Positions 7,754 to 33,014 of a DNA stretch of 33,427 nucleotides are shown piece by piece. The notes beneath the pieces are model-generated. The model did no database searches. It saw only the letters and a list, made by a program, of their open reading frames with translations, and was not told where the DNA came from. The translations under genes were made by a program, and so were the position numbers. The first letter of the stretch is position 1. Each line of letters opens with the position of its first letter. The stretch is taken from NCBI GenBank assembly GCA_002084875.1, contig NBMH01000068.1, positions 1 to 33,427 on the forward strand, written 5' to 3'. The stretch comes from Anaerolineaceae bacterium 4572_78. GTDB taxonomy: Bacteria > Chloroflexota > Anaerolineae > 4572-78.

Positions 7754-7770
7754 CTATAGCCAAAATTACT

Positions 7771-7818
7771 GGAGCGACAAAACATGCTTTTTCATGTCAA
7801 AGCAAGTTTTGAACATCC
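7771..7818 (+). repeat. 48-nt palindromic repeat, copy A
   Basis: The sequence begins GGAGCGACAAAACATGCTTT, has a TTCATGTC loop, and returns as AAAGCAAGTTTTGAAC. The two arms form a stem of about 13 bp with one mismatch. It lies between the convergent ends of clpB and the Thr/Pro-linker protein and might serve as a terminator. It belongs to the family described for 8911-9011, 10183-10230 and 16694-16741. Confidence 0.8.
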
Positions 7819-7828
7819 CTGATAGTAA

Positions 7829-7848
7829 GGGCGTATAGCCATACGCCC
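7829..7848. repeat. Hairpin of the GGGCGTAT/ATACGCCC type
   Basis: GGGCGTAT, AGCC and ATACGCCC give a perfect 8-bp stem with a 4-nt loop, followed by CCTACAA. A variant (GGGTTTAT-GCC-ATAAACCC, then CCTACA) lies at 26213-26231, so this is a dispersed repeat. It sits between two convergent gene ends and could act as a bidirectional terminator. Confidence 0.65.
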
Positions 7849-7878
7849 CTACAACTAGCATTGAACAGCCCTAACATG

Positions 7879-8898
7879 CTAAGGGGTTGCTCCTCGTTGA
7901 AAAACCACTTGCCATGATGGCAATATATCTTGTGCTAAATCAGGACATTCATTTCCTGATAGTTTGTTTACATTCTTAGCAATGGCATTAGGCATGCCTA
8001 GTATTTCTATTTGGTAGATTTGACCTGGTTCCATTTGAAAATCGGCATAACCTGGTTCAAGGGGTGACTTTAATCCTGTAAATACACGATTTTGCCCACC
8101 CGTCCAACTTACCATAATACTTATCCCCGACTCACCTTCGCCATTAATCCCATTGACATAAATCTTGAGTAAGCCATCGCTTTTATCATCACAGAGAACC
8201 TCAAAATATGCCAATCCAAAAGGCGAATTTGGACTAAGTGTAGGTGTAACGGTGGGAAATGGTGTACTTGTCGGCGTAAATGTTGAGGTTGATGTTGACG
8301 TATAAGTCGGCAAAGGTGTTGCTGTGTGAGTTGGAATCGGTGTTGCTGTATTTGTATCGTTAGCAGTTGGCATGGGGGTTGCTGTATTAGTTGGGGTGGG
8401 AGTTACCGTTTGCGTATCTGTTGGCATGGGAGTATTTGTCGGTGTAGGTGTGAGTGTAGGGCTTGGCGTGTTTGAAGGAGTAGGTGTTATAGTTGGGGTA
8501 TGAGTTGGTTTAGGGGTTGGAGTAATAAAGTATGCTTTGAGAATCGGCGGCGTTTCGCCTAAAGCTACAGCAAGATTTACTAGAGAACGAATGTCCTTGA
8601 GGTCTGATTCGGTATAGATATGTTTTTCAGCTAAATTGACAATTGTAGTATGGATATTTTTATCCCGCAACCGAGCCAGACGATTTTGTGCTTTCAGCAA
8701 GTCGTTATCATAACGATAAGTAGCACCAATAAGCACGGTGTATAATTCTTTATCTGTTGGATTTAATTGGTCGGGGCGAGTGTATGGATTAAATGGATTG
8801 ACGGGATGAATATACCAGGTATAGATTAGGGATGCCATCAACCCAATCACACATGATATAAAAAAACCACCAAGCCACCAATCTTCTTCATGCTTCAT
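7879..8898 (-). CDS. Membrane-anchored protein: helical domain, Thr/Pro linker, beta-rich C-terminus (paralog 1)
   Basis: Function is unknown. The 339-aa protein has one transmembrane helix near the N-terminus (about 11-30). A helical domain follows at about 45-115 with [31 protein letters not shown] and [10 protein letters not shown] linker of [11 protein letters not shown] repeats spans about 125-222. The C-terminal domain (about 225-339) is beta-rich ([20 protein letters not shown]) and resembles an Ig-like fold only in general character. The linker would hold the C-terminal domain away from the membrane, as in many Chloroflexota surface proteins. The next gene upstream (9035-10153) has the same architecture and a similar helical domain, so the two are tandem paralogs. 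A palindromic repeat lies directly upstream of the start. Confidence 0.75.
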
Positions 8899-8910: not shown

Positions 8911-9011
8911 GGAGCCGCAAAACTTTGGAGTGAAAAAGCTTGCTTTTTCATGTCAAAGCAAGCTTTGACCCTCCATAAGATAGACTCCATAAGAATAAAC
9001 TTTGATGCTCC
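8911..9011 (+). repeat. 48-nt palindromic repeat, copy B, nested inside another copy
   Basis: An inner, full 48-nt copy runs 8927-8974 (GGAG to CTCC, TTCATGTC loop, arms with AAAGCTTGCTTT and AAAGCAAGCTTT). It is flanked by GGAGCCGCAAAACTTT at 8911-8926 and AAACTTTGATGCTCC at 8997-9011. These flanks are the two ends of a second element of the same type, so one copy seems to have landed inside another. The cluster lies between the two paralogous linker-protein genes and covers the upstream region of the first. Confidence 0.75.
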
Positions 9012-9034: not shown

Positions 9035-10153
9035 TTAAAACGGATGAGTTGCTTGAAATACAACAAAATATGAATAATGTCCCCAGCAAAGAGCATTGGC
9101 TCCTTGACCTGCTACGCCACTGTTCCACTTTGCTCTGCACTCGCCCTCGCTACCACAATAGCCAGCTTGAATCAGCCAAGGGATGGGGATTTCCCAATCA
9201 TTGGTACTTAATTTTTGTGTCTGTTCGCTACTGACAGGGTTACCCAATGGATATTCTATCACCTGAATTGCAGCACCATTTTTAACCAATTCTATTTCGG
9301 CAAGTTTTCTGCCGTAATGAAGAAATGGCTCATCTTTATCACCAGAGGTAACATTGAATTGATTAAATGGTGGGTCGCTTATTTTAGCACCTTTTAATTG
9401 ATTGCCGTTTACATCTTGTACATCAATAAAAATATGATGATTGCCCAGGCAACCGCCATTTTCTTGCTTGGTCAACATCTGTATTTGTGCTATCTTAAAA
9501 TCAACCGCAGGCGGTGGTGGCGGCGGCGTATTTGTTAGTGGCATAGGTGTAAATGTCATGGTTGGTGGCGGCGGCGGTGGTGTATTTGTTGGCGGCACGA
9601 CAGCTGCCTTTACAGGTGGAATAGGTGTATCTGTTGATGGGACTGGTGTATCCGTTGGCGGAACAGGTGTATCCATTGCTGGAACGGGTGTATCTGTTGG
9701 CAACGGGGTATGTGTGTTAGTTGGTGGAATAGGAGTATTCGTTGGCAATGGGGTATGTGTCGAAATATACGACAACATATTTTCTGTACCTGTTCCCATT
9801 GATTCTGCTAAACGGATGACATTTTTCAAATCAGTATCATTTTTATCTCGCCCTTCTTGAATGTAACGGTCTGCTAAAAAAGAAACGTATTGGGCAGGAT
9901 TAGGTATATCTAACTCTTGCAATCGTTTTTTTGATTTTTCCATGTCATTATCAACCGCATACTCAGCCGCAACAAGTTTAACAAATTCTTCTGTTTCATC
10001 GGGAGCCATGTCACCAATCTGACCAGTTGGGCTTTGTGCTGGGAGTAGCACCCAACCAACTACCAACCCTGCAACGATAGCTAAGAAGCAACCAATAGGT
10101 ACAATTGAAATAATAATTGCCAAGCGTCGGTCTATTTGTCTTAATCTTTTCAT
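9035..10153 (-). CDS. Membrane-anchored protein: helical domain, Thr/Pro linker, beta-rich C-terminus (paralog 2)
   Basis: Function is unknown. The 372-aa protein has a basic N-terminus, a transmembrane helix at about 12-35, a helical domain at about 50-125 (AEYAVDNDMEKSKKRLQEL, LADRYIQEG, DLKNVIRLAESMG), a Pro/Thr linker at about 133-218 ending in two PPPPPP runs, and a C-terminal domain at 218-372 with four cysteines. The helical domain matches that of the next gene (shared pattern YxxDNDxxKxxxRLxxL ... DLKxxxxLAxxxG), but the C-terminal domains differ. This suggests a common anchor module with different outward-facing domains. It precedes paralog 1 on the same strand with the nested palindromes between, and follows the broken PfkB gene. 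Confidence 0.75.
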   Translation of the reverse strand: MKRLRQIDRRLAIIISIVPIGCFLAIVAGLVVGWVLLPAQSPTGQIGDMAPDETEEFVKLVAAEYAVDNDMEKSKKRLQELDIPNPAQYVSFLADRYIQEGRDKNDTDLKNVIRLAESMGTGTENMLSYISTHTPLPTNTPIPPTNTHTPLPTDTPVPAMDTPVPPTDTPVPSTDTPIPPVKAAVVPPTNTPPPPPPTMTFTPMPLTNTPPPPPPAVDFKIAQIQMLTKQENGGCLGNHHIFIDVQDVNGNQLKGAKISDPPFNQFNVTSGDKDEPFLHYGRKLAEIELVKNGAAIQVIEYPLGNPVSSEQTQKLSTNDWEIPIPWLIQAGYCGSEGECRAKWNSGVAGQGANALCWGHYSYFVVFQATHPF

Positions 10154-10182
10154 GTAATTACCTCATGAGTAAAATGTATATT

Positions 10183-10230
10183 GGAGCGAAAAAGTTTGCT
10201 TTTTCATGTCAAGGCTAGCTTTAACGCTCC
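10183..10230 (+). repeat. 48-nt palindromic repeat, copy C
   Basis: It runs from GGAGCGAAAAAGTTTGCTTT through the TTCATGTC loop to ...TTAACGCTCC, exactly 48 nt as in copies A, the inner B and D. The right arm carries substitutions (AAGGCTAGCTTT). It occupies the gap between the PfkB pseudogene and linker-protein paralog 2. Confidence 0.8.
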
Positions 10231-10251
10231 ATGGTTTGACCATCACATGCT

Positions 10252-11312: not shown

Positions 11313-11457
11313 GAATAATTACGTAATTATTCACTCCCATTTTTGTTAGTAGACCCCAACCCCCAGCCCCTTCCCCTACGAAGAAAAGTGGAGTAAGATT
11401 CCCCCCTCTCCCTGTGGGGGAGGGGTTAGGAGTGGGGGTGAACGGTTATATAATTAC
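11313..11457 (+). repeat. GC-rich dispersed repeat, copy I
   Basis: It opens with the palindrome GAATAATTACGTAATTATTC and CACTCCC, then TTGTTAGTAGACCCCAACCC, CAGCCCCTTCCCCTACGA, GGAGTAAGATT, CCCTCTCCCTGTGGGGGAGG, GGTTAGGAGTGGGGGTGAAC and GGTTA. Copies with the same blocks lie at 26383-26514 and, diverged, at 20528-20655. The internal CCCTCTCCCTGTGGGGGAGGG can fold into a hairpin. It is non-coding. Confidence 0.75.
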
Positions 11458-16320: not shown

Positions 16321-16640
16321 CGTCCCAATTCATAAATCACCTTTGCTGTCCTTAAAACTTCACGTCGTCGTATTCAATTATGACAGTCCTGAACTGATTT
16401 TTTTGTAAATACATCAACATTTCTGTTAAGTAATTGTTGTAATTCATCTTGAACATGCATAAGGTCAAACAAGTTTTTCTTTGATTTGGGGGCAAATGTG
16501 ATTATAATATCAACATCACTTTCAGGCTTAAAGTCATCACGCAAAACTGAACCAAAAAGAGCAAATTCAATAATTTGCCATTTTTGACAAAATGCGTTAA
16601 GTTGTTCATTCTTAAGTGTGAAATTTTTTAACATTTCCAT
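16317..16640 (-). pseudogene. MntA-type nucleotidyltransferase antitoxin, interrupted by TGA
   Basis: Intact MntA is a minimal nucleotidyltransferase that adenylylates and silences HepT. The catalytic motif GSVLRDDFKPESDVDIIITF (GSx10DxD) is present, as is the C-terminal NRNVDVFTKKSVQ segment. An in-frame TGA at 16374-16376 interrupts the usual end: after QDCHN the frame continues IRRREVLRTAKVIYELGR to TGA at 16317-16319. A Trp codon (TGG) is plausible at that position. I place the start at 16640 (MEMLKNF), because the longer frame upstream is translated palindromic repeat. The restored protein would be 107 aa, normal for the family. With HepT gutted, loss of the antitoxin would cost nothing. 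Confidence 0.75.
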
Positions 16641-16647
16641 GTAAATG

Positions 16648-16676
16648 TTTGTAGCATAAATGCATGTTAATGTCAA
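16648..16676 (-). promoter_or_regulatory. Probable promoter of the mntA remnant
   Basis: Read on the minus strand, TTGACA (16676-16671), a 17-nt spacer and TACAAA (16653-16648) make a good sigma-70 promoter. Transcription would begin at about the mntA start codon at 16640, so the message may be nearly leaderless. Confidence 0.5.
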
Positions 16677-16693
16677 GTTCGGTTGAGAAGTAG

Positions 16694-16741
16694 GGCTGTT
16701 CAAAACTTGCTTTGACATAAAAAAACAAGCTTTTTCTCTCC
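16694..16741 (-). repeat. 48-nt palindromic repeat, copy D
   Basis: In reverse orientation it begins GGAGAGAAAAAGCTTG and ends AAAGCAAGTTTTGAACAGCC, with loop TTTATGTC. Its length is the same 48 nt as the other full copies. It lies between the mntA remnant and the divergent DUF2344 gene, and translated readthrough of it produces a spurious N-terminal extension of mntA. Confidence 0.78.
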
Positions 16742-16785
16742 ATTGTGCAACCACATGATTGAAAATCATGAGGAGTCTATAAAAA

Positions 16786-22373: not shown

Positions 22374-25300
22374 CTATCCCTGCACAAAAATAAATCCCGC
22401 CCAATAAAAAGGATGGTATCCTTGCTGTAAAGCGGTTTGTTGAGCATGTTGCAAAGCGGCCGCAACATTTAGGCTTTGTTCCGATGGCATTACACATTGA
22501 TAAAAGTCTGTCATCAACTGAGCAGAGGCTTGGTCAGCCACAGGCCACAAACTGACAATTAATCCCGAAGCTCCCGCTGCTAAAAAGCCACGTCCCATGC
22601 CTAACAATCCGCCGCCGCGTGGCTGTCCACGTCCTGTTTGGCATGCACTTAGAATAACAAAGGGACGTTTGGGAAGTGTAATTTCCCGTAAATCTGCTAC
22701 CGTCAAGCGTGAATCTGCCAACGACATCCATGAAAAGAAAGGGTTATCAGGTCGAAAAATGGCATGCGTTGCCAGGTGAAGTAAATGGCTGGTTTGACAT
22801 GCCTCTCGAAACCGCTTGTGGGTAGCGGCTTGTTCCAACAAAAGATGTGTTTGCCAATTAGATTGCAAGGTAGCTTCAACTGCTTGCCCTTCTATTGTCG
22901 TATGAGGTAATCGTCCCTCATCAGAATAACCGATGATTAATGCATGTGGTTTATCATGTACGACAGGCATCTTTTGAGATGTGAGCAATACTTCGGTCGC
23001 AGAAAGATAAGTTAAACTGAAACGCTCTATTAAATATCGTTGCCCATCAAAAAAACCTGCAAATGGCAAATTATGTTCATTAGGCGGCACAATAAGAAAC
23101 ATAAAATCATAATCAGTTAAATAATCTTCAAGAGGTGCAATCAACGCTTGATAAAAACGGTTGAGATACGTTTGTGCCATGCCAAGACTTTTTTGTGATA
23201 ATAGTTTGCTATGCCCATGCTCTATAAAAAATTGCCATGACTTTAACAAACGTTGGACAGCCTTTACAGAAATTAAATCAGGCACAAAATGAGTATGGTC
23301 GGAGGTGACTAAGATTGCTTGGAAATGTCCATCAACCACAAAATAATGCAGTAGGACATGTGATTTAGTAGGGGTTTCCCTACCGCACTCAAACAATCTT
23401 TTTTGTATTCGCCGCTCAAAATTTTGAGCGGTTTGAGATGTGAAACGAAACGACGATATCGGCACTTCGTCAGTAGTGGTTACATTCGTCATCCGCACCT
23501 GCCAGCGATGAGTCAATTCGGCGATTTGGGTTTCAATTTGCTGTACATGTCGGCGTAATTCTGTGACATCGATTTCAGGAAATTTTGGTAGTTCATCACT
23601 ACGAGGATCAATCGGGTTATCTAATTTGCTTTGATGCCAATGCCATGCTTGTCGTAATGTCTCCAAATCATTGCGTAATTGTCGGTCAGTATCCGAAAGT
23701 GTAAAAGGTAGTGTTTCAAATAAATCAGGACGAGGTAAGGGAGCGGTATGTGCCATGTTGAGAATATAAAACAGTTCAGTGATTGCTCCCATTTTGTGAC
23801 TGAGATGAATACTATCTTGATAAATCTGCATCTTATTATCTAAAAATCCTATCTGAAATTCGTCGAGAGGGAGTCTCATTCGTAACTGTTCAATCGTTTC
23901 AAGGGCAGTTTGATAATGATAACGTGCTTCGTACAGGTTACCCATTTTCTCTAATATTTTTCCTAACAGGTGATACGTGGCAATAGCAATTTCAGTGAGA
24001 CTGTAGCCATCGGCGAGTGCCAATGCTTTTTTGGCACGATGATGAGCTATTGTCAAAGCAAGCTTTGACCCTCCAGGTTTCTCTACCTGACTGTCATGAG
24101 CGGCTAATCTACATGAAGCAAAAAGGATGTGAAGTCTAGCCGTTAAAGTCGGTAGTAGTGCCTTGTCTAAATTCTGTTCAATATTGGTAGCTAAACTTTG
24201 AGCCTTGTCATAGTTTCCTTGTTCTAGAGCTAAAAATGCTCGTTCCAAATCGAGCATGAACACTCGCTTATGAGCGGCACTTTGTTGGAAAATATTGCGT
24301 GCTTTACACAAACATGCTTCCGCTTTTTGATACGCCTGTAGTCGTTGATACCCCACACCTTGAATCATCAAAGCAAGTGCCTCATGCCAAAGTGTTACAT
24401 CTTCTCGGAATGTTATTTCTGCGGCGGCGGCTAAGCTGATTGTTTCTTGCAACAAGTTCAAATCTTGGTAGACTAATGCTCGATATACGTTGACTACAGC
24501 AACTTCGTTTGGATTGGGAATCGCCACAAAAGTATTATGGGCATTTTCTAAATGATGTAAAGCAGTTTGATACTGTCCTCGCCGATAGGCTAATACTCCC
24601 AAATTAAGGTCAACTCGTCCCACTTCTTGGTCATAACCTGTTTGAGTCAGGGCAGTTTGAGCCGATATCAACAACTGTTCGGCAATATCAAATCTGTCAA
24701 TTTCTTCCAACACATTTGCTCGATTGATGTCAACCCGTGCTGCTTGGATGGTATCTCCCAAATCAATAAATAAAACATGTGCTTGTTCATAAGATATAAG
24801 TGCCTGACTCATTTGCCCCAAACGGCGATAAAGGACTCCGATATTCATATCTAGTAAAGCTAAATACCGTCGAGCATGTTCGCCGATTGTTTGGCATGTT
24901 CGTCGAGCATGTTGAGCCAAATCGAGGGCAGTCTGATACTCACCTATTTCTTGAAGGGCGGCTAATTGATTGATTTGCAAACGGAGCGATTTCAAATCAT
25001 GCCCCAAGTTATGACAAATTTTCTCGGCATGTTGAAAATATTCTAAGGCTTCTTGGTATTGATTTAAGAAAAAAAGGGCATTACCTTTTGCCCACAAAGA
25101 TAAACTTTCTGCTTCAGGCAAAGCCAGCACATCCGCAACCGCACAGCAAATCTCAGCAATATCAAAGGCATGCTGGGCATTCCGAAGCATCTCATCATCC
25201 ACTTTCTCCTTCAAGTGTTTAACTACGTCTAAGGAGAGATGAGAGTGTAATGATTCTAATTTGACAGACATTTCGTCTGTCCCATATTGAGCAGTACCAT

Positions 25301-25382
25301 GCCAAGTGATTAATTCATTTACTACATCTTGTGGGCTTAGGAAATATTCAGTTCGTTGATAGCTATACAAGTCATTTGCCAT
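22374..25382 (-). CDS. Large TPR-CHAT putative cysteine peptidase
   Basis: A cytoplasmic protein of 1002 aa. TPR units fill about 75-530 (ALFFLNQYQEALEYFQHAEK, GVLYRRLGQMSQALISYEQA, GVLAYRRGQYQTALHHLENA). A helical connector follows, then the CHAT domain at about 690-1002. Catalytic His in HLLHLATHAIFRP (about 869) and Cys in VILSACQTGRG (about 911) form an intact caspase-like dyad, with GGGLLGMGRGFLAAGASGLI and HPFYWAGFIFVQG completing the fold. Residues about 437-444, GGSKLALT, are encoded by an inserted half-repeat (24051-24074). Its start lies 46 nt inside the upstream zinc-finger gene, which implies coupled translation. TPR-CHAT proteins elsewhere act in protease-triggered immunity or stress signalling; here the partner and substrate are unknown. 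Confidence 0.85.
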   Translation of the reverse strand: MANDLYSYQRTEYFLSPQDVVNELITWHGTAQYGTDEMSVKLESLHSHLSLDVVKHLKEKVDDEMLRNAQHAFDIAEICCAVADVLALPEAESLSLWAKGNALFFLNQYQEALEYFQHAEKICHNLGHDLKSLRLQINQLAALQEIGEYQTALDLAQHARRTCQTIGEHARRYLALLDMNIGVLYRRLGQMSQALISYEQAHVLFIDLGDTIQAARVDINRANVLEEIDRFDIAEQLLISAQTALTQTGYDQEVGRVDLNLGVLAYRRGQYQTALHHLENAHNTFVAIPNPNEVAVVNVYRALVYQDLNLLQETISLAAAAEITFREDVTLWHEALALMIQGVGYQRLQAYQKAEACLCKARNIFQQSAAHKRVFMLDLERAFLALEQGNYDKAQSLATNIEQNLDKALLPTLTARLHILFASCRLAAHDSQVEKPGGSKLALTIAHHRAKKALALADGYSLTEIAIATYHLLGKILEKMGNLYEARYHYQTALETIEQLRMRLPLDEFQIGFLDNKMQIYQDSIHLSHKMGAITELFYILNMAHTAPLPRPDLFETLPFTLSDTDRQLRNDLETLRQAWHWHQSKLDNPIDPRSDELPKFPEIDVTELRRHVQQIETQIAELTHRWQVRMTNVTTTDEVPISSFRFTSQTAQNFERRIQKRLFECGRETPTKSHVLLHYFVVDGHFQAILVTSDHTHFVPDLISVKAVQRLLKSWQFFIEHGHSKLLSQKSLGMAQTYLNRFYQALIAPLEDYLTDYDFMFLIVPPNEHNLPFAGFFDGQRYLIERFSLTYLSATEVLLTSQKMPVVHDKPHALIIGYSDEGRLPHTTIEGQAVEATLQSNWQTHLLLEQAATHKRFREACQTSHLLHLATHAIFRPDNPFFSWMSLADSRLTVADLREITLPKRPFVILSACQTGRGQPRGGGLLGMGRGFLAAGASGLIVSLWPVADQASAQLMTDFYQCVMPSEQSLNVAAALQHAQQTALQQGYHPFYWAGFIFVQG
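24051..24074 (-). repeat. 24-nt half-copy of the palindromic repeat inside TPR-CHAT
   Basis: On the coding strand GGAGGGTCAAAGCTTGCTTT then GACA equals exactly one half of the 48-nt element, from the GGAG end to the loop. It is in frame and encodes GGSKLALT between two TPR helices (after VEKP, before IAHHRAKKALALA). The same half in the same frame occurs in the hybrid sensor kinase at 29612-29635. Confidence 0.8.
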
Positions 25383-26032
25383 TTTAATTGTAATGAGTAC
25401 TGACCTGCCTCGATATTTTCGAGGGAAAAATAACCAAAATCGTCGATAACATCGTGAGAAACGATATTGCCGTTATTAACAAGATTAATCATGCCTTCTT
25501 CTGATAAAGAAATGGTATCTCCTGAAGGTAAAACTTGTCCTTCCAATTGCCACATATTTTCTTCAGCCATCGGTGGCTCAAGGGTTAAAACTATTTGATG
25601 TTCTTCGGTTTGATACATGGATTCTTGTTTCTCATCACCACGCAAAGCAAAAGCGGGTTTTGGTGTAGAAACGAATATCGCCTGTAAAACACGCTTGAAC
25701 GGTTGAGTCATTTGTTCTAAAATTGATGGCTGTGGCATGATGGCAATCCCGTTAGCAATTTGAGTCAATTCTTGCCGACAGTGAAGGCATGTCTTGAGAT
25801 GAACCTGAACAGATTTTCTCTCGGATTGGGCAAGTAAGCCCGATTGGTAAAGTAGCAAATCGTTTGGGGTTGAGCAACCACCTCGATAGAGTAGACCACT
25901 TAATAGGGCATCTAATTTTTTTAAGGCAGTTTTCTCATCAATATCATTCGTATGCTTAACGAACTGTCGAACGATATGCGAAGACTGTTTGTCGTTTTTT
26001 TGTAGTTGACCTGAGTTGGTATGTTTGTCCAT
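25337..26032 (-). CDS. Zinc-finger (zf-HC2-like) protein coupled to TPR-CHAT
   Basis: This 231-aa protein shows C53 ... H78-x3-C82-x2-C85 (GGCSTPNDLL ... VHLKTCLHCRQE), the Cys-His-Cys-Cys pattern of anti-sigma-type zf-HC2 domains. The middle is hydrophilic. The C-terminal 80 residues form a beta-rich segment (EGQVLPSGDTISL, GYFSLENIEAGQYSLQLKW) similar to carboxypeptidase-regulatory-like folds. No transmembrane helix follows the finger and no sigma factor gene is next to it, unlike classic anti-sigma factors. The start at 26030-26032 has AGGGA about 9 nt upstream; the longer frame to 26182 runs through Cys-rich, improbable sequence. It overlaps the TPR-CHAT gene by 46 nt, so the two proteins are probably made together and may interact. 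Confidence 0.72.
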   Translation of the reverse strand: MDKHTNSGQLQKNDKQSSHIVRQFVKHTNDIDEKTALKKLDALLSGLLYRGGCSTPNDLLLYQSGLLAQSERKSVQVHLKTCLHCRQELTQIANGIAIMPQPSILEQMTQPFKRVLQAIFVSTPKPAFALRGDEKQESMYQTEEHQIVLTLEPPMAEENMWQLEGQVLPSGDTISLSEEGMINLVNNGNIVSHDVIDDFGYFSLENIEAGQYSLQLKWQMTCIAINELNIS

Positions 26033-26212
26033 GACGCTTTCCCTAATTGTAAAATTTGTTTGTCTGTAGCACGAACATATTGTCTGTGAAAGCATACAGG
26101 TAAAAATAGTTGTGCTACACGAACAGGCAAGATGCCCATCCCATAAACATAAGGTTAAAATCTTATGTAATGTTAACACCAAAAAAGGATTAGTTTTGTG
26201 AATACCATAAGC

Positions 26213-26231
26213 GGGTTTATGCCATAAACCC
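26213..26231. repeat. Hairpin of the GGGTTTAT/ATAAACCC type
   Basis: GGGTTTAT, GCC and ATAAACCC form an 8-bp stem with a 3-nt loop followed by CCTACA, the same layout as the GGGCGTAT hairpin at 7829-7848. Confidence 0.6.
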
Positions 26232-26319
26232 CTACATTAACACCGTTCACAAATGTAGGGGGTTGTGGCACAAACCACATGGTTTAAAATTACAATTCTT
26301 ACCCTTAGCAAGTATAAAG

Positions 26320-26383
26320 TAATATTTTCATGAAGATTTTGCTAGATAGCGTCAAAGGTTGTTTGATTAGACCTGACAGGTTG
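26320..26383 (+). repeat. GACCTG-type dispersed repeat, copy 1
   Basis: The blocks TAATATTTTCATGAAGATTT, TGCTAGA, CAAAGGTTGTTTGATTAG and ACCTGACAGGTT occur in the same order and spacing, on the opposite strand, at 32751-32812. About three quarters of the positions agree. This copy is interrupted on its right by the GC-rich repeat. Confidence 0.7.
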
Positions 26384-26514
26384 TAACCGTTTACCCCAAC
26401 CCCAGCCCCTTCCCCTACGAGGAGAAGGGGAGTAAGATTTTCCCCTCTCACTGTGGGGGATGGGTTAGGAGTGGAGGTCTACTAACAAGAAGGGGAGTGA
26501 ATAATTACGACGGT
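26383..26514 (-). repeat. GC-rich dispersed repeat, copy II
   Basis: It shares AGCCCCTTCCCCTACGA, GGAGTAAGATT, CCCTCTCACTGTGGGGGA, GGTTAGGAGTGG and the end GGGAGTGAATAATTACG with copy I (11313-11457). The TTGTTAGTAGAC and GTAATTATTCACTCCC blocks lie at the opposite end compared with copy I, so the ends are interchangeable inverted repeats. Confidence 0.72.
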
Positions 26515-26561
26515 TTCTAAAAACCTGTTAGGTCTGGACCCAAAATGCTACTCCCTATTTT

Positions 26562-26936
26562 TTACAAAAGTTCGTTTTTCAGTTGAGTAAGTATTTTTTC
26601 CTCAACATCCTGTCCAACATTGTCTGACTTTGACAATGAAACTGCCATTTCATAAACTTGTTGACGGAGTTCAGGATTTAATATTTCCTTCGTGGCTGAA
26701 ACAATAGTTGACACTTCTTCAGGTGTAAATGGGGTGTTCATATCATTTTTGTTGAACATATTAAGCACCTTATCTTGAAGTTCAGTAAAGTTATGTCCTT
26801 CAAAAACAGAATAATCCTTAACAATATTCACCCAGATTTGGTGTCCTTCAGCCATTGAATACTCTTTATCAGATGTAACAATCATTACTGCTACGGCTGC
26901 ATAAGACTCAGCCGCTGATTCAAATTTTATCGCCAT
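26562..26936 (-). CDS. TerB-like small helical protein
   Basis: An all-helical 124-aa protein, FESAAESYAAVAVMIVTSDK-EYSMAEGHQIW at its start and a C-terminal EILNPELRQQVYEMAVSLSK helix pair. The pattern of an Ala-rich helix, an acidic turn, EGHQIW and a second copy-like half fits the tellurite-resistance TerB fold, though the metal-binding acidic residues are not clear. The start at 26934-26936 has AAGGAG 7 nt upstream; a 13-residue extension upstream (MPNEIWHSTRRNS) is translated from a palindrome. It follows methionine aminopeptidase on the same strand with a palindrome between. The role is unknown; the family assignment is moderate. Confidence 0.5.
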   Translation of the reverse strand: MAIKFESAAESYAAVAVMIVTSDKEYSMAEGHQIWVNIVKDYSVFEGHNFTELQDKVLNMFNKNDMNTPFTPEEVSTIVSATKEILNPELRQQVYEMAVSLSKSDNVGQDVEEKILTQLKNELL

Positions 26937-26951
26937 TGAATTTCTCCTTGT

Positions 26952-26998
26952 GGAGTGCCAGATTTCATTTGGCATGCAGAATAAAATTCTGCGACTCC
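26952..26998. repeat. Two-hairpin palindromic element with GGAGT/ACTCC ends
   Basis: It begins GGAGTGCCAGATTTCATTTG and ends GCAGAAT-AAA-ATTCTGC then GACTCC. The right half is a perfect 7-bp hairpin; the left half is a weaker TGCCA/TGGCA hairpin. The GGAGT/ACTCC ends pair with each other. It sits between the methionine aminopeptidase stop and the TerB-like start, so it could end or attenuate transcription. Confidence 0.6.
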
Positions 26999-27029
26999 AT
27001 TATAAAAATAAAAAGATATTGGGCGTAGA

Positions 27030-27893
27030 TTATTTGGTCAGAATCTCTACCCCTGTTTCTGTTACACGAACGGTGTGTTCCCATTGAGCCGACAATTTAC
27101 TATCTTTAGTAACGATAGTCCATTCATCAGACAATGTTTCCATTTCTCGTGAACCCTGATTAATCATTGGCTCAATAGTAAAAACCATGTTGGGGCGTAA
27201 AACAAGTCCTTGTTTTCGCTTGCCATAATGGGGAATATTTGGCGGTTCATGAAATTGCACACCTGTCCCATGCCCAACCAATTCACGCACTACCGAGAAG
27301 CCATGCCGTTGAGCATATCGTTGAATAATAAAACCAATATTACCAATATGTGCATTTGGTTTTACCTGTTCAATTCCTAAATAAAGACATTCTTTGGTAA
27401 TACGAACTAATTTTTCAGCAAGAGGGGTCGTTTGCCCAATGATATACATCCGACTCGCATCGCCAAAGTAACCATTTAAAATCGTAGTAACATCAACATT
27501 GATAATATCCCCTTCCATCAAAATGGTCTGGTCAGGGATGCCATGACATATAACATTATTAATTGATGTACATGTACTTTTGGGAAATCCTTTATAATTT
27601 AGAGTGGCGGGCCAACCATCACATTCAACCGTGTATTCGTATATCCACTGGTCAATCTCATTTGTGGTAATCCCTTCTTGGATACGTTCCCCTACCATAT
27701 CTAAAATTTTACTGGTTAATTGACTACTTTTACGAATGCCCTCTATTTGGGCTTCCGTTTTCATGACAATTTCTTTAGAGTCAAAATCTTCTTTTCGCCA
27801 AAATGACCGAGTTTTTCTCTTTTTACGCTCAGATTGCTCTGCTCGTTTTTTACCTTTACCCGACCAAGGAAGTGGTTTACGTATTTTCCTCAT
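27030..27893 (-). CDS. map: Methionine aminopeptidase, type I
   Basis: This enzyme removes the initiator methionine from new proteins in the cytoplasm. The five metal ligands are present: Asp in INVDVTTILNGYFGD (both Asps), His in VRELVGHGTGVQFHEPP, Glu in MVFTIEPMIN and Glu in QWEHTVRVTE. CTSINNVICHGIPD holds the substrate-pocket His. The catalytic domain starts at MKTEAQIEGIRKSSQ (27764). I give the ATG at 27893, which adds a 43-aa very basic N-terminus (RKIRKPLPWSGKGKKRAEQS, ERKKRKTRS). Such extensions on some bacterial enzymes aid ribosome association. No clear Shine-Dalgarno sequence supports either start, so the end is uncertain. The TerB-like gene follows. Confidence 0.9.
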   Translation of the reverse strand: MRKIRKPLPWSGKGKKRAEQSERKKRKTRSFWRKEDFDSKEIVMKTEAQIEGIRKSSQLTSKILDMVGERIQEGITTNEIDQWIYEYTVECDGWPATLNYKGFPKSTCTSINNVICHGIPDQTILMEGDIINVDVTTILNGYFGDASRMYIIGQTTPLAEKLVRITKECLYLGIEQVKPNAHIGNIGFIIQRYAQRHGFSVVRELVGHGTGVQFHEPPNIPHYGKRKQGLVLRPNMVFTIEPMINQGSREMETLSDEWTIVTKDSKLSAQWEHTVRVTETGVEILTK

Positions 27894-28006
27894 TATTCTA
27901 ATTATCAGTTTTAACTTAACAAAATAAATGTATATTTCTAAATAGTAGCACAAATTTTTAAAGTAGCAAAATTGGCGAGTTATGTTTTAACTTATAGCAA
28001 TTTCCA

Positions 28007-31000
28007 TTACTTGTGTGTCAATGCTGCTACCCATTCCCAATTTGTTGGCACACCATATTTTGCAAAACTGTCTATCCGTTGCAGATATACTTCAGCCGCC
28101 TTGTCATCAGGATTAACGGTAATCACCTTTTCAAATTCAGCTCGTGCCAGCTCAAATTCCTGACGACGATAATGAAATATCCCTTGTTCGAAATTGGTTT
28201 GGGTTAGGAGTTTTGCTTGTCGGATAGCTTTTGGAGTGGCATCCATGACTTCAAAAATAGAAATCGGTTCGGTCTTGCCTTTGACCTGCACCATGTCTAA
28301 AAACCGAAACTGATATTTTTTGGGGTCTTTTAAACTGCTAATGGTTTCATCGCTGATAATCATTGAGGCACCATACATTTTAGTCAGACCTTCCAAACGT
28401 GCCGTTAAATTCACATTGTCCGAAAAAGCATCGCCCTGCATGCGATTTATTTCGCCGACCATGCCCACCATCATGTGACCGACATGAATACCAATCCCAA
28501 TCTGAATAGGCATATAACCACTTTTTTTGCGGTCGATGTTATAATGAGACACCTTTTTTAATTTTTCGATGCCAGATTTGATGGCATCATCCGCTCCATT
28601 GGGGAAAACTGCCATGACCCCGTCGCCAAGATATTTTACGATGAATCCACCATATTCTCGGATGACAGGGCTAACTCGCTTTAAGTAAGCATTGACAAAA
28701 TTAAAGTTTTCTTGAGGAGTCATGTCTTCCGATAGAGTGGTAAAAGAGCGAATATCAGAAAACATCACTGCCATTTCTTTGCTGACATGGTCGCCTAAAT
28801 TAACATCAATAATACTATCCTTTTGCAGAAAATCGAGAAATTCATGTGGTACAAAGCGACTGTAAGCATGGTTCATTTTTGCCAATTGAAGATGTACTTT
28901 AACCCGTGTCAATAACTCCTCTTTGGAAAAAGGTTTGGTTAAATAATCGTTGGCACCAGCTTGAAAACCTAGTATTAAATCTGCTAATTGATTTTTAGCC
29001 GTCAGCATGAATATCGGCAATTCATGGGCGGGATAAGTTTTGCGTATCTTGCGACACACATCATAGCCCGACATGTGCGGCATCATCACATCTAAAAGCA
29101 CTAAATCAAAATGGTAATCTGATTCAAAAAGGGCAAGAGCTTCGGGACCATAAGCCGCTTGTGTGACATGATAATTTTGTAAAGTGAGATGATTAGTAAT
29201 AACTTGCAAATTCATCGGTTCATCATCAACCACTAACACATGATATTTCTGATTATTATTTGTCGCATTATCTTCTGTTTCAATAGGAACGACAATTGAC
29301 TTGTCGGATTTATCGTCATGTTGTATGATAGATGAAATCAGAGGTGTAGGTGGAGATAGTTTTATATTATTATTTGCTAGAGGCAAAGTAAATGTAAAAC
29401 GCGAACCGTGTCCTACTTTGGATTTCACCGAAATTTCCCCGCCATGCAATTCAACCAATTGTTTGGTGATGGCTAGACCAAGCCCTGTACCACCATATTG
29501 TCGAACCGTCGAGCCATCCGCTTGTTCAAATGATTGGAAGATGCGTTCGTATGAGTTTTTGTCAATGCCGATGCCTGTATCGGTGATGCTGATAGCTATA
29601 AACTCGTTGCCTGTTAAAGCAAGTTTTGACGCTCCTGAGGATATATGTTTATGGGTGCCATTATTTTCGGCATGAACACGACTAGCTGATACCACCACTT
29701 GCCCCGAATTGGTAAACTTGATGGCATTGCCAACTAAATTGTACATGATTTGCTGTAGACGATTTTCATCAGCCATGACAGGTGGCAAATTGGAACGAAT
29801 CTTGTTGACCAGTTTAATCGGTTTTGTGCCTAGCAATGGCTGGGACAATGATAAAACAACATCGGCTAAACTCGACACACTGACAGGTTTCGTTTGCAAC
29901 TCAAGTTGTTCATTCTTCATCCTAGAAAAATCCAGAATATCGTTCACCAAATGAGCCAATCGCTTGCCTCCTGAAACAATCATTTGTAAATTTGTAATGG
30001 TTGTTTGGGGCAATGCTCCAGTTGCACCATCAACAAGCGATTCTGCTAAGCCGATAATGCCATTTAATGGCGTTCGTAATTCATGGGAAGTGTTTGCCAA
30101 GAATTCATCTTTAAGATGGTCAACCCGTTGTAAGCGTTTGTTCAGTAATTCTGCCTGCTCCAAACGATGTGCCTGATATCGAATATAACCGCCCACAATC
30201 GAGATGATTACGAGGGTGTAAATTGTGTATGCCCACCATGTTTTCCACGGGGGTGGGAAAACCGTTACGACAATTGAGGTGTCTTGTTCATTCCATACCC
30301 CATCATTATTTGTACCTTTTACATGGAAAATATAGTCGCCAGATGGCAAATTGGTATAGGTCGCAAAACGGCGTGTTCCGACATAATTCCATGTTTTGTC
30401 GAATTTTTGAGGATAAAATAAATTAACACCATTAATCCCACCAAAGAACATTTCACCCGTCATGCTTTGGTGATATGCTCCAGAGGTAAATTCGTTACTT
30501 TGCAAACCATCTTTGGGGTCATAGTTCCGAAAAGTATCCGTTTTAGGATTAAATTTCGATAAACCTCGATTTGTGCTAAGCCACAAATTTCCTGATTCGT
30601 CGGGCAGTATGCCATGAATAACGCCGTTTGGTAGCCCATCTTTTGTAGTGTAGTAGTTAAATGTTTTGCTTTTTGGATTAAAGCGATTTAATCCGCCACC
30701 ATCAGTCCCAAGCCACAAAATACCTGTTTGGTCTTCATAAATTGAAAGAACAGAATTGTTGCTAATACTATTTGGCATGTCAGGATTAACCTGATATCGA
30801 GTAAATTTTTCCGTATCTCGATGGAATTGATTAAGTCCCCCACCATCTGTACCAATCCACAAAGTGCCTTTATAGTCTTCATGAATAGACAAAACATGAT
30901 TACTTCCCAAACTAGCATCATTATAAATATTATATTGATAATAGGTAAAAATCCCTGTTTCTCTATCAAATAAATTAAGTCCCCCATTATAAGTTCCCAA

Positions 31001-32431
31001 CCACAAATGTCTTGTACTATCTTCATAAATAACAGTAACAAAATTATCACTAATGCTATTTAGGTCATCAGGATTATAGCGATAATGCTTAAATGTATTG
31101 CTCTTTGGGTCAAAATAATCTAAGCCGCTACCATCTGTACCAAGCCAAATTATGCCCGCTTGGTCCTGATAAACAGATAAAACACGATTATTGCTTAAAC
31201 TGTTGGGATTGTTGGAGTCATGAACATAGTGAGTGAAGGTGTGAGTGGCACGGTCAAGATAATCCAAGCCATGTAGCGTCCCAAGCCAAAGCACATTTTC
31301 GGCGAAATTATCCGCATAAATTGCCTGAACCTGATTATTGATTAAACTGTTTGTTTGATTGGGATGATGCTGAAAATGAGTAAATTTTTGTTTGCTACGG
31401 TCGCTACGATTGATGCCGCCGCCATGAGTGCCAATCCAAATAATGCCAGTGCGGTCTTCGTAAATCATGGAAATACTATTATTGCTAAGGCTTGTTGAAT
31501 TGGGGCGGTGCATAATTCGAGTAAAACGAGCATTGCTCTTGTCCAATTGATTGAGTCCTTTGCCTGATGTACCAATCCACAACACTCCTGCCGTATCTTC
31601 GTAAATATCAGAAATGGCATTATCGCTCAAACTGTAATCATCATGGGGGTTATGCTGATAATGGATAAAACGGTCATGCTCACGATTGAGTTGATTAAGT
31701 CCTCCTTGCGAAGTGCCAATCCATAACAACCCCGCATGGTCTTCATAAATCGTTGTAATTGCTCCTAAGCTAATGCTGTCAGGATTAGCGGGGTTATGTT
31801 GATAATAAGAAAATGTCATAGTTTTGCGATTAAATTGGTTAAGCCCATCTTCTGTACCAATCCACAAAATACCTGTTCGGTCTTCATAAATTTCGTAGAT
31901 TGGACTAGGATTAGCTCGATAGCGGATAAATTGATTTGTTTTTTGATTAAACTGATGGAGCCAGCCTGCTTGAGTACCAATCCACATGAGCCCTAATTTA
32001 TCCTCATAAATGGCTGTAATAACATCATCTGCTAAAGCATGTTTATTTTCAATATCACTGTGGTAGCGAGTGAAACGTTCGTACTCACGGTCGAACTTAT
32101 TTAAGCCATCATGCGTACCAATCCAAAGTTGTTCGTTGTTGTCTTCATAGATGACAGATATGCGATTGTGGCTAATGCTGTCGGAGGATTCGGGGTCATG
32201 CCGATAAATGGTAAATTCATAACCATTATACTTGTTCAATCCATCTTCTGTACCAAACCACATGAACCCATTTCTATCTTGGAGGATGTATGTCACCGAG
32301 TTTTGCGACAATCCTTCATCAATAGAAAGAATTTCATAGGTCATCGATTCAGGGAGTTGGGCATGCGAAGATGTTGCCATCAAAATAACAATTGATACGA
32401 CGAGTAAAAATGTTCTGCTGATAACGCTCAT
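28007..32431 (-). CDS. Hybrid sensor kinase: propeller sensor, HisKA/HATPase, receiver, class III nucleotide cyclase, TPR
   Basis: A 1474-aa membrane signalling protein. A signal peptide (1-25) leads to about 14 Reg_prop blades (about 40-670; LWIGTEDGLNQFN-type), two seven-bladed periplasmic propellers. A Y_Y_Y domain follows but lacks its first ~70 residues: FYPQK runs straight into FDKTWNYVGTRRFATYTNLP. One transmembrane helix lies at about 728-750. HisKA His is in ANTSHELRTPLNG (about 782). The HATPase has NLVGNAIKFTN, DTGIGID and GGTGLGLAI. The receiver Asp is in LLDVMMP, Lys in TKPF. The cyclase (about 1215-1400) keeps both metal Asps (FSDIRSF, LGDGVMAVF) and NLTARLE. Two TPRs end the protein. 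Residues about 933-940 (GASKLALT) come from an inserted half-repeat. GGAGG lies 7 nt before the ATG. Confidence 0.92.
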   Translation of the reverse strand: MSVISRTFLLVVSIVILMATSSHAQLPESMTYEILSIDEGLSQNSVTYILQDRNGFMWFGTEDGLNKYNGYEFTIYRHDPESSDSISHNRISVIYEDNNEQLWIGTHDGLNKFDREYERFTRYHSDIENKHALADDVITAIYEDKLGLMWIGTQAGWLHQFNQKTNQFIRYRANPSPIYEIYEDRTGILWIGTEDGLNQFNRKTMTFSYYQHNPANPDSISLGAITTIYEDHAGLLWIGTSQGGLNQLNREHDRFIHYQHNPHDDYSLSDNAISDIYEDTAGVLWIGTSGKGLNQLDKSNARFTRIMHRPNSTSLSNNSISMIYEDRTGIIWIGTHGGGINRSDRSKQKFTHFQHHPNQTNSLINNQVQAIYADNFAENVLWLGTLHGLDYLDRATHTFTHYVHDSNNPNSLSNNRVLSVYQDQAGIIWLGTDGSGLDYFDPKSNTFKHYRYNPDDLNSISDNFVTVIYEDSTRHLWLGTYNGGLNLFDRETGIFTYYQYNIYNDASLGSNHVLSIHEDYKGTLWIGTDGGGLNQFHRDTEKFTRYQVNPDMPNSISNNSVLSIYEDQTGILWLGTDGGGLNRFNPKSKTFNYYTTKDGLPNGVIHGILPDESGNLWLSTNRGLSKFNPKTDTFRNYDPKDGLQSNEFTSGAYHQSMTGEMFFGGINGVNLFYPQKFDKTWNYVGTRRFATYTNLPSGDYIFHVKGTNNDGVWNEQDTSIVVTVFPPPWKTWWAYTIYTLVIISIVGGYIRYQAHRLEQAELLNKRLQRVDHLKDEFLANTSHELRTPLNGIIGLAESLVDGATGALPQTTITNLQMIVSGGKRLAHLVNDILDFSRMKNEQLELQTKPVSVSSLADVVLSLSQPLLGTKPIKLVNKIRSNLPPVMADENRLQQIMYNLVGNAIKFTNSGQVVVSASRVHAENNGTHKHISSGASKLALTGNEFIAISITDTGIGIDKNSYERIFQSFEQADGSTVRQYGGTGLGLAITKQLVELHGGEISVKSKVGHGSRFTFTLPLANNNIKLSPPTPLISSIIQHDDKSDKSIVVPIETEDNATNNNQKYHVLVVDDEPMNLQVITNHLTLQNYHVTQAAYGPEALALFESDYHFDLVLLDVMMPHMSGYDVCRKIRKTYPAHELPIFMLTAKNQLADLILGFQAGANDYLTKPFSKEELLTRVKVHLQLAKMNHAYSRFVPHEFLDFLQKDSIIDVNLGDHVSKEMAVMFSDIRSFTTLSEDMTPQENFNFVNAYLKRVSPVIREYGGFIVKYLGDGVMAVFPNGADDAIKSGIEKLKKVSHYNIDRKKSGYMPIQIGIGIHVGHMMVGMVGEINRMQGDAFSDNVNLTARLEGLTKMYGASMIISDETISSLKDPKKYQFRFLDMVQVKGKTEPISIFEVMDATPKAIRQAKLLTQTNFEQGIFHYRRQEFELARAEFEKVITVNPDDKAAEVYLQRIDSFAKYGVPTNWEWVAALTHK
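29612..29635 (-). repeat. 24-nt half-copy of the palindromic repeat inside the sensor kinase
   Basis: On the coding strand GGAGCGTCAAAACTTGCTTT then AACA equals one half of the 48-nt element. It adds eight codons, GASKLALT, in the loop of the HATPase domain just before EFIAISITDTGIGI. Frame and orientation are identical to the insertion in TPR-CHAT at 24051-24074. Confidence 0.8.
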
Positions 32432-32874: not shown

Positions 32875-32908
32875 AGACAAGAAAGGTTTTCAAAAACCTT
32901 TCTTGTCT
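32875..32908. repeat. Perfect 16-bp hairpin
   Basis: AGACAAGAAAGGTTTT, CA and AAAACCTTTCTTGTCT form a 16-bp stem with a 2-nt loop, 34 nt in all. It lies in a gap between divergent genes and directly beside the half-repeat at 32913-32936, so it is more likely a mobile repeat than a terminator. Confidence 0.7.
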
Positions 32909-32912
32909 TGAC

Positions 32913-32936
32913 TGTCAAAGCAAGCTTTGACGCTCC
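32913..32936 (-). repeat. 24-nt half-copy of the palindromic repeat (intergenic)
   Basis: On the minus strand GGAGCGTCAAAGCTTGCTTT then GACA equals the half-unit found inside the two genes at 24051 and 29612, with the same 24-nt length, but here outside any gene. Confidence 0.75.
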
Positions 32937-33014
32937 ATGTACGTTGAATTTCTGTTCCTCTCTCCCGTGTTGGTGGAGGTGAACGGTTACGGGATTCCCA
33001 AAAGAAAATCAAAA

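Follow-up and report, generated by a model that had tools for sequence, protein, structure and literature searches.

Two unrelated proteins encoded in the window, by which we mean the whole analysed stretch of 33,427 nucleotides, contain an in-frame octapeptide of the form GxSKLALT. Very likely, these octapeptides result from translation of a short REP-like hairpin that moves, or once moved, and was inserted at tolerant sites. This hairpin, to which we refer as the GGAG unit, is an abundant repeat.

Copies of the repeat in the window

The first in-gene copy is a single unit at positions 24051-24074 (GGAGGGTCAAAGCTTGCTTTGACA), which encodes GGSKLALT (residues 437-444) in a TPR-CHAT protein of 1,002 amino acids (22374-25382, minus strand; Pfam CHAT, E = 2.5e-52, and TPR_12, E = 3.7e-23). 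The second, also single, lies at 29612-29635 (GGAGCGTCAAAACTTGCTTTAACA) and encodes GASKLALT (residues 933-940) in a hybrid sensor kinase of 1,474 amino acids (28007-32431, minus strand), in which Pfam identifies Reg_prop, Y_Y_Y, HisKA, HATPase, receiver, and guanylate cyclase domains. Both copies are present on the minus, coding strand in the orientation and frame given in the initial annotation. The same annotation described each of them as exactly half of an intergenic palindrome. This is true of the TPR-CHAT site, which matches one half of the palindrome at 8926-8975 without a difference across 25 nt, but not of the kinase site, which has three mismatches to that half, including the free base that follows the tag.

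The palindrome at 8926-8975 is an intergenic head-to-head doublet of a GAA-arm and a GTC-arm hairpin. A second intergenic doublet, slightly diverged, lies at 10182-10231; a diverged head-to-head doublet at 7770-7820 adjoins a GTAG-tagged REP of a second family (7825-7852, minus strand; pattern match at 7829); and a degenerate one occupies 16692-16743, near the predicted start of the open reading frame at 16374-16769. At 32887-32938 a minus-strand single unit forms a composite with a second hairpin of the AGTCAAGACAAGAAAGG type. No Rfam families were found in the window. It also contains other repeats: a longer, MITE-like intergenic repeat at 11322-11439 and 26394-26509, the two copies of which are 88% identical across 85 nt and have inverted ends of 55 nt that contain AGTAGACC / GGTCTACT; two inverted hairpin arms at 26214-26276 (GTTTATGCCATAAACCCCTACATT / AATGTAGGGGGTTGTGGCACAAAC) that look like a GTAG REP pair; and short repeats of tandem-like arrangement within two adjacent predicted coding regions (8246-8516 and 9531-9771), the former encoding a threonine/proline-rich stretch.

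Structure and abundance of the GGAG unit

Good units, defined as those with at most one mismatch, consist of TGGAG, one variable base, an 8-bp stem with a 2-nt loop (usually TT) and, usually, a final CA. The unit occurs singly, as a head-to-head doublet of 48-50 nt, or within composites; the 48-50-nt palindrome is two tagged hairpins placed head to head, the layout of a REP doublet (BIME/REPIN). Stem arms GTC/GAC, GAA/TTC, and GAC/GTC are all found in the family, and doublets mostly pair one GAA arm with one GTC arm. In a scan without a pairing filter, the free stem columns were paired in 87% of cells, as opposed to 57% with shuffled partners and 38-40% with partners slid by one column. Thus, the DNA hairpin itself is conserved.

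An 18-nt core pattern has 492 matches in the 4.1-Mb assembly, compared with 3 for the reversed control pattern, and 7 matches in the window, where 0.06 would be expected. A GGAG-containing pattern with up to one mismatch allowed has 300 matches genome-wide. Further analysis used a sample of 1.14 Mb, taken as stretches of the assembly, the first of which were picked on contigs known to hold copies. With up to three mismatches allowed, the sample yielded 290 units versus 5 in the reversed control. Close unit pairs in the first sample were almost always arranged head to head with the tags outside (51 of 53). The sample contains 66 good doublets, the flanks of which are often part of a larger repeated context, and 19 good singles are joined to another hairpin, as in the composite at 32887-32938. 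Taken in the broad sense, these are the properties of a REP-like repeat: a short, high-copy hairpin with a conserved unpaired tag on one side and a covarying 8-bp stem, mostly extragenic and often found as inverted doublets. A search of IMG/VR viral contigs produced no copies.

In-gene copies and their reading frames

Genes in the sample were called with our own simple dicodon model, not from curated annotation, which gave 919 genes and a coding fraction of 0.86. Among the 167 good elements, 29 fall within genes over their whole length, 116 between genes, and 22 at a gene edge, in DNA that is 86% coding. In-gene copies are strongly depleted, yet they are common. By two patterns, 173 of 492 and 109 of 287 genome-wide copies (35-38%) fall within the sample, and therefore about 80 in-gene copies are expected in the assembly. 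The absence of further copies would have spoken against the original reading; instead, they are numerous both in the genome and inside genes.

The host proteins include sensor kinases, TPR proteins, glycosyltransferases, membrane mannosyltransferase-like proteins, an HdrA-like subunit, and polyketide-synthase modules. They are unrelated, and where the insertion site could be examined it was variable or low-confidence. Several hosts (L068:2966, L078:7890-7936, L110, and L117) contain at least two units each, some of them in tandem (e.g., GAS-KP-GASKLALT, QAKQALTLQAKQALTLQ), which suggests local duplication. In the HdrA-like protein (L059:14824-16371), about 50 residues that are present in homologs L313 and L314 are missing and a unit (LTKQALSLH) is found at the junction, possibly as a result of a deletion between two repeat copies.

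In the consensus GTC-arm unit, four frames are free of stops: GASKLALT and WSVKACFD in the sense orientation and VKASFDAP and SKQALTL in the antisense orientation. Good in-gene singles (n = 24) use them 7, 1, 9, and 5 times, respectively; each of the remaining two frames was found in one single, with its stop mutated. In other words, the two TGA-containing frames are avoided and the frame containing tryptophan and cysteine is rare, the unevenness of frame use being weak (P = 0.095). The initial annotation proposed selection for the one frame that yields GxSKLALT, a proposal that finds no support here because each of the four open frames occurs among the in-gene copies, which lie in either orientation. 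By simple arithmetic, two copies would share a frame, as they do in the window, about one time in three at these frequencies.

Homologs and structural context of the insertion sites

The inserted residues have no counterpart in the homologs examined. More than 20 homologs of the kinase, from relatives and from distant phyla, lack GASKLALT, and their loop ahead of ITDTGIGI is short or unrelated. Six homologs of the TPR-CHAT protein, at 20-25% identity, lack a stretch that contains part of the insert, although this gap comprises 12 residues rather than 8. A TPR protein that carries a whole doublet is 15 residues longer than two homologs. Accordingly, in-frame insertion is observed in several unrelated proteins, and for three of these hosts the homologs have nothing corresponding. 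No homolog with the same residues, which would have counted against the original reading, was seen among those examined. Close empty sites for GGAG insertions were not found, the closest homologs at these sites being about 50-60% identical or less. Two other candidate hosts were set aside: in the aconitase-family host L091 the units fall after the end of the PDB-matched domain and are uninformative on insertion within a fold, and in the flavodoxin/SCP2 host L053 the linker length varies among relatives, which precludes a clean insertion length.

In the AlphaFold models, the kinase insert is placed in a loop between two HATPase strands, mostly with pLDDT below 50, and the TPR-CHAT insert runs from the last part of an inter-helix loop into the beginning of the following helix, at the junction of two TPR helices. 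As modeled, the kinase insert is clearly a loop, whereas the TPR-CHAT insert is a helix junction. Together with the homologs, the models bear out the suggestion that members of a repeat family were inserted in frame at tolerant sites.

One HATPase loop is occupied in three kinases. Two paralogs from the same genome, L094 and L264, have doublet-like inserts in the same loop as the window kinase: GASKLALT-DKASRLVPP in L094 (GASKLALTDKASRLVPP) and GASNIGLT-GKASFVPP in L264 (GASNIGLTGKASFVPP), compared with GASKLALT only in the window kinase. This shared position reflects either an old insert copied with the gene or a repeated landing place; in a paralog tree computed after deletion of the loop, one common origin of the inserts in all three kinases is neither supported nor rejected (p-AU 0.12). 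The residues that follow the unit in the window kinase, GNEF, match GNKF of the insert-free paralog L265. Derivation of the window-kinase half from a doublet by an 18-nt deletion (GGCAA..GAGTTT is shared with L264) was considered, and it is weakened by this match.

A RAYT associated with a second REP family

A search of the genome with PF01797 returned no Y1 transposase. The initial impression that the genome lacks one was overturned by a search with NF047646, which identified a RAYT of 214 amino acids at L344:1426-2070 on contig C97. Its score of 62.7 bits (E = 3.3e-17) falls short of the curated cut-off, 80 bits; an HVH motif and, further on, a tyrosine region were recognised by eye. PF01797 also gives this protein a score under its own cut-off, and the probable reason is that the domain is interrupted by two REPs in frame. 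These are GTAG-type REPs, and they lie between the HUH and Tyr regions and are translated as NVGVYGLKPLRDG and TVGACGLTPLPG. Here, a REP transposase has taken up repeats of its own type. It is flanked only by GTAGGGG-type hairpins. A similar arrangement, resembling a classical RAYT-REP cluster, is seen in genome G013, where GTAG hairpins (GTAGGACAAACTTAAGTTTGTCCTAC) are found on both sides of a RAYT (L302:1452-2168) and GGAG hairpins are located elsewhere. No GGAG copies were found beside either of these two RAYTs. Copies that flank a RAYT gene mark the GTAG super-family, and the GGAG family does not show this in the present assembly, which is 82% complete, so its cognate transposase may be missing.

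Origin of the in-gene copies

The explanation that we favor has several steps. The GGAG family would have been amplified in this lineage and inserted widely, presumably spreading as a single-stranded hairpin by the action of a transposase of the RAYT type (Y1 HUH) or of a relative since lost. Inside genes, a copy would survive only if the unit were stop-free, the frame kept, and the site a tolerant loop or linker. Units of 24 or 48 nt, equal to 8 or 16 codons, would keep the frame, and purifying selection would leave a bias toward short in-frame inserts in loops. What is conserved is the DNA hairpin, and the peptide is most likely a by-product. Evidence on the other side consists of the GTAG-type flanks of the RAYT, the tag GGAG in place of GTAG, and the 12-residue gap in the TPR-CHAT homologs.

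Single units and doublets are distributed differently. Among good elements of the sample, 19 singles without any trace of a second arm are in genes and 21 are intergenic, whereas doublets, whole or degenerate, number 10 in genes and 77 in intergenic regions; singles are therefore enriched in genes (19/40 versus 10/87, odds ratio 7, P = 2e-5). This excess would result from insertion of single units, from doublets being trimmed, or from longer inserts being selected against. Rather than insertions of half-units, the in-gene singles could be what is left of doublets after in-frame deletion of one arm, a scenario compatible with the rest of our explanation and one that we place a little short of even chances. 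On the one hand, a singlet has been read as the remnant of a defunct doublet in the REPs of Pseudomonas fluorescens SBW25 (PMC3116915), the L094 and L264 paralogs have doublet-like inserts in the very loop of the window kinase, and five in-gene copies score as retaining a degenerate second arm. On the other hand, the 19 traceless singles speak against it, as does the GNEF/GNKF match, a hint that one unit was inserted cleanly; the kinase tree favors neither side. Conversely, it seems rather unlikely that the single 24-nt hairpin is the mobile form, with insertion or retention biased to coding loops. The initial annotation considered a mechanism that mobilises half-units. No special mobiliser of this kind is needed; the half is one hairpin of a REP-like doublet, and singles could equally be trimmed or decayed doublets.

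Two other explanations were considered. The units might be co-opted peptide modules, with GxSKLALT selected in its hosts as, for example, an extended loop or a helix cap. The identical frame and orientation of both window copies and the unit-derived residues in the same loop of three kinase paralogs would fit this idea; we nevertheless regard it as quite improbable, since the GASKLALT frame accounts for only 7 of the 24 good in-gene singles, VKASFDAP and SKQALTL are as common, and the hosts are unrelated, with variable or low-confidence sites. With just two in-gene copies in the window, one could also think of chance resemblance, or of a protein motif encoded alike in unrelated genes. The excess of core matches over expectation, in the window as well as genome-wide, and the homologs without the inserted residues make this exceedingly improbable.

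Relation to known repeats and significance

Of 298 genomes in the class, 3 were found to contain the GGAG unit: its own, G013 (10 exact copies), and G021 (1 copy). The hairpins of the latter two share the layout of TGGAG, one base, an 8-bp stem, and a 2-nt loop, often in head-to-head pairs, but their arms are GAC/GTC and each pair takes up about 58 nt, compared with 48 here. Close relatives of the kinase occur in named records such as Candidatus Halobeggiatoa and Thioploca, and by this sequence relationship the order to which the genome belongs probably includes Beggiatoa-like bacteria.

The GTAG/CGTC REPs are palindromes of 20-40 bp with an unpaired tag at one end, found singly or as head-to-head dimers; most are intergenic, and a minority, single or dimeric, are read in frame as part of real proteins (Di Nocera et al. 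2013, PMC3733652). The GGAG family has the same layout and a similar in-frame minority. However, its tag, GGAG preceded by T, is absent from the tag variants given for those REPs: it is neither GTAG nor GYAG/GYRG/GTRG/GTMG/GTGG of the GTAG super-family, and the unit consensus lacks the tag of the CGTC super-family, which includes RPE-4 and RPE-6. Furthermore, singles prevail in genes in the GGAG family, whereas more than half of the intragenic GTAG/CGTC REPs are dimers or groups (PMC3733652). In the REPIN/BIME systems with RAYTs (PMC3116915, PMC2817692), two inverted tagged hairpins are the common unit, as they are here; this genome also has a RAYT, and GTAG REPs are found beside some GGAG copies. 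The difference is that its RAYT goes with the GTAG family and no GGAG copy adjoins it.

Rickettsia palindromic elements are inserted in frame in numerous unrelated proteins, where they occupy solvent-exposed positions (PMC3767692, PMC2229807), and the proposed likeness of the window copies to these elements, as a different family, holds up: both are in-frame palindromes in many unrelated proteins, here at tolerant sites and without a counterpart in homologs. This is a likeness by description, not by sequence alignment, and the Rickettsia elements (RPE-1 to -3; RPE-4, -6, and -7) are about 100-150 bp long, compared with 24 or 48 nt here. The host of the GGAG family, which we place among the gammaproteobacteria, is also different from Rickettsia.

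Because in-frame REPs and the Rickettsia elements have been published, insertion of such repeats into genes is already known as such. The present family stands out by its GGAG tag, its unusually short, codon-sized unit, and its bias to singles in genes, a new observation for which either route, insertion or trimming, must account. The GGAG tag adds a class to the REP-like repeats, and the genome, gammaproteobacterial by our placement, is one in which in-frame invasion of proteins is common, with roughly 80 in-gene copies expected in the assembly. The RAYT with its two in-frame REPs shows how far such insertions can be tolerated. A unit length that is a multiple of three, combined with the excess of singles in genes, makes the filtering of inserts by selection countable. 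If singles do turn out to be mobile, the repeat would be a genome-wide source of ready-made 8-residue loop extensions, of which the HATPase loop in three kinases would be an example.
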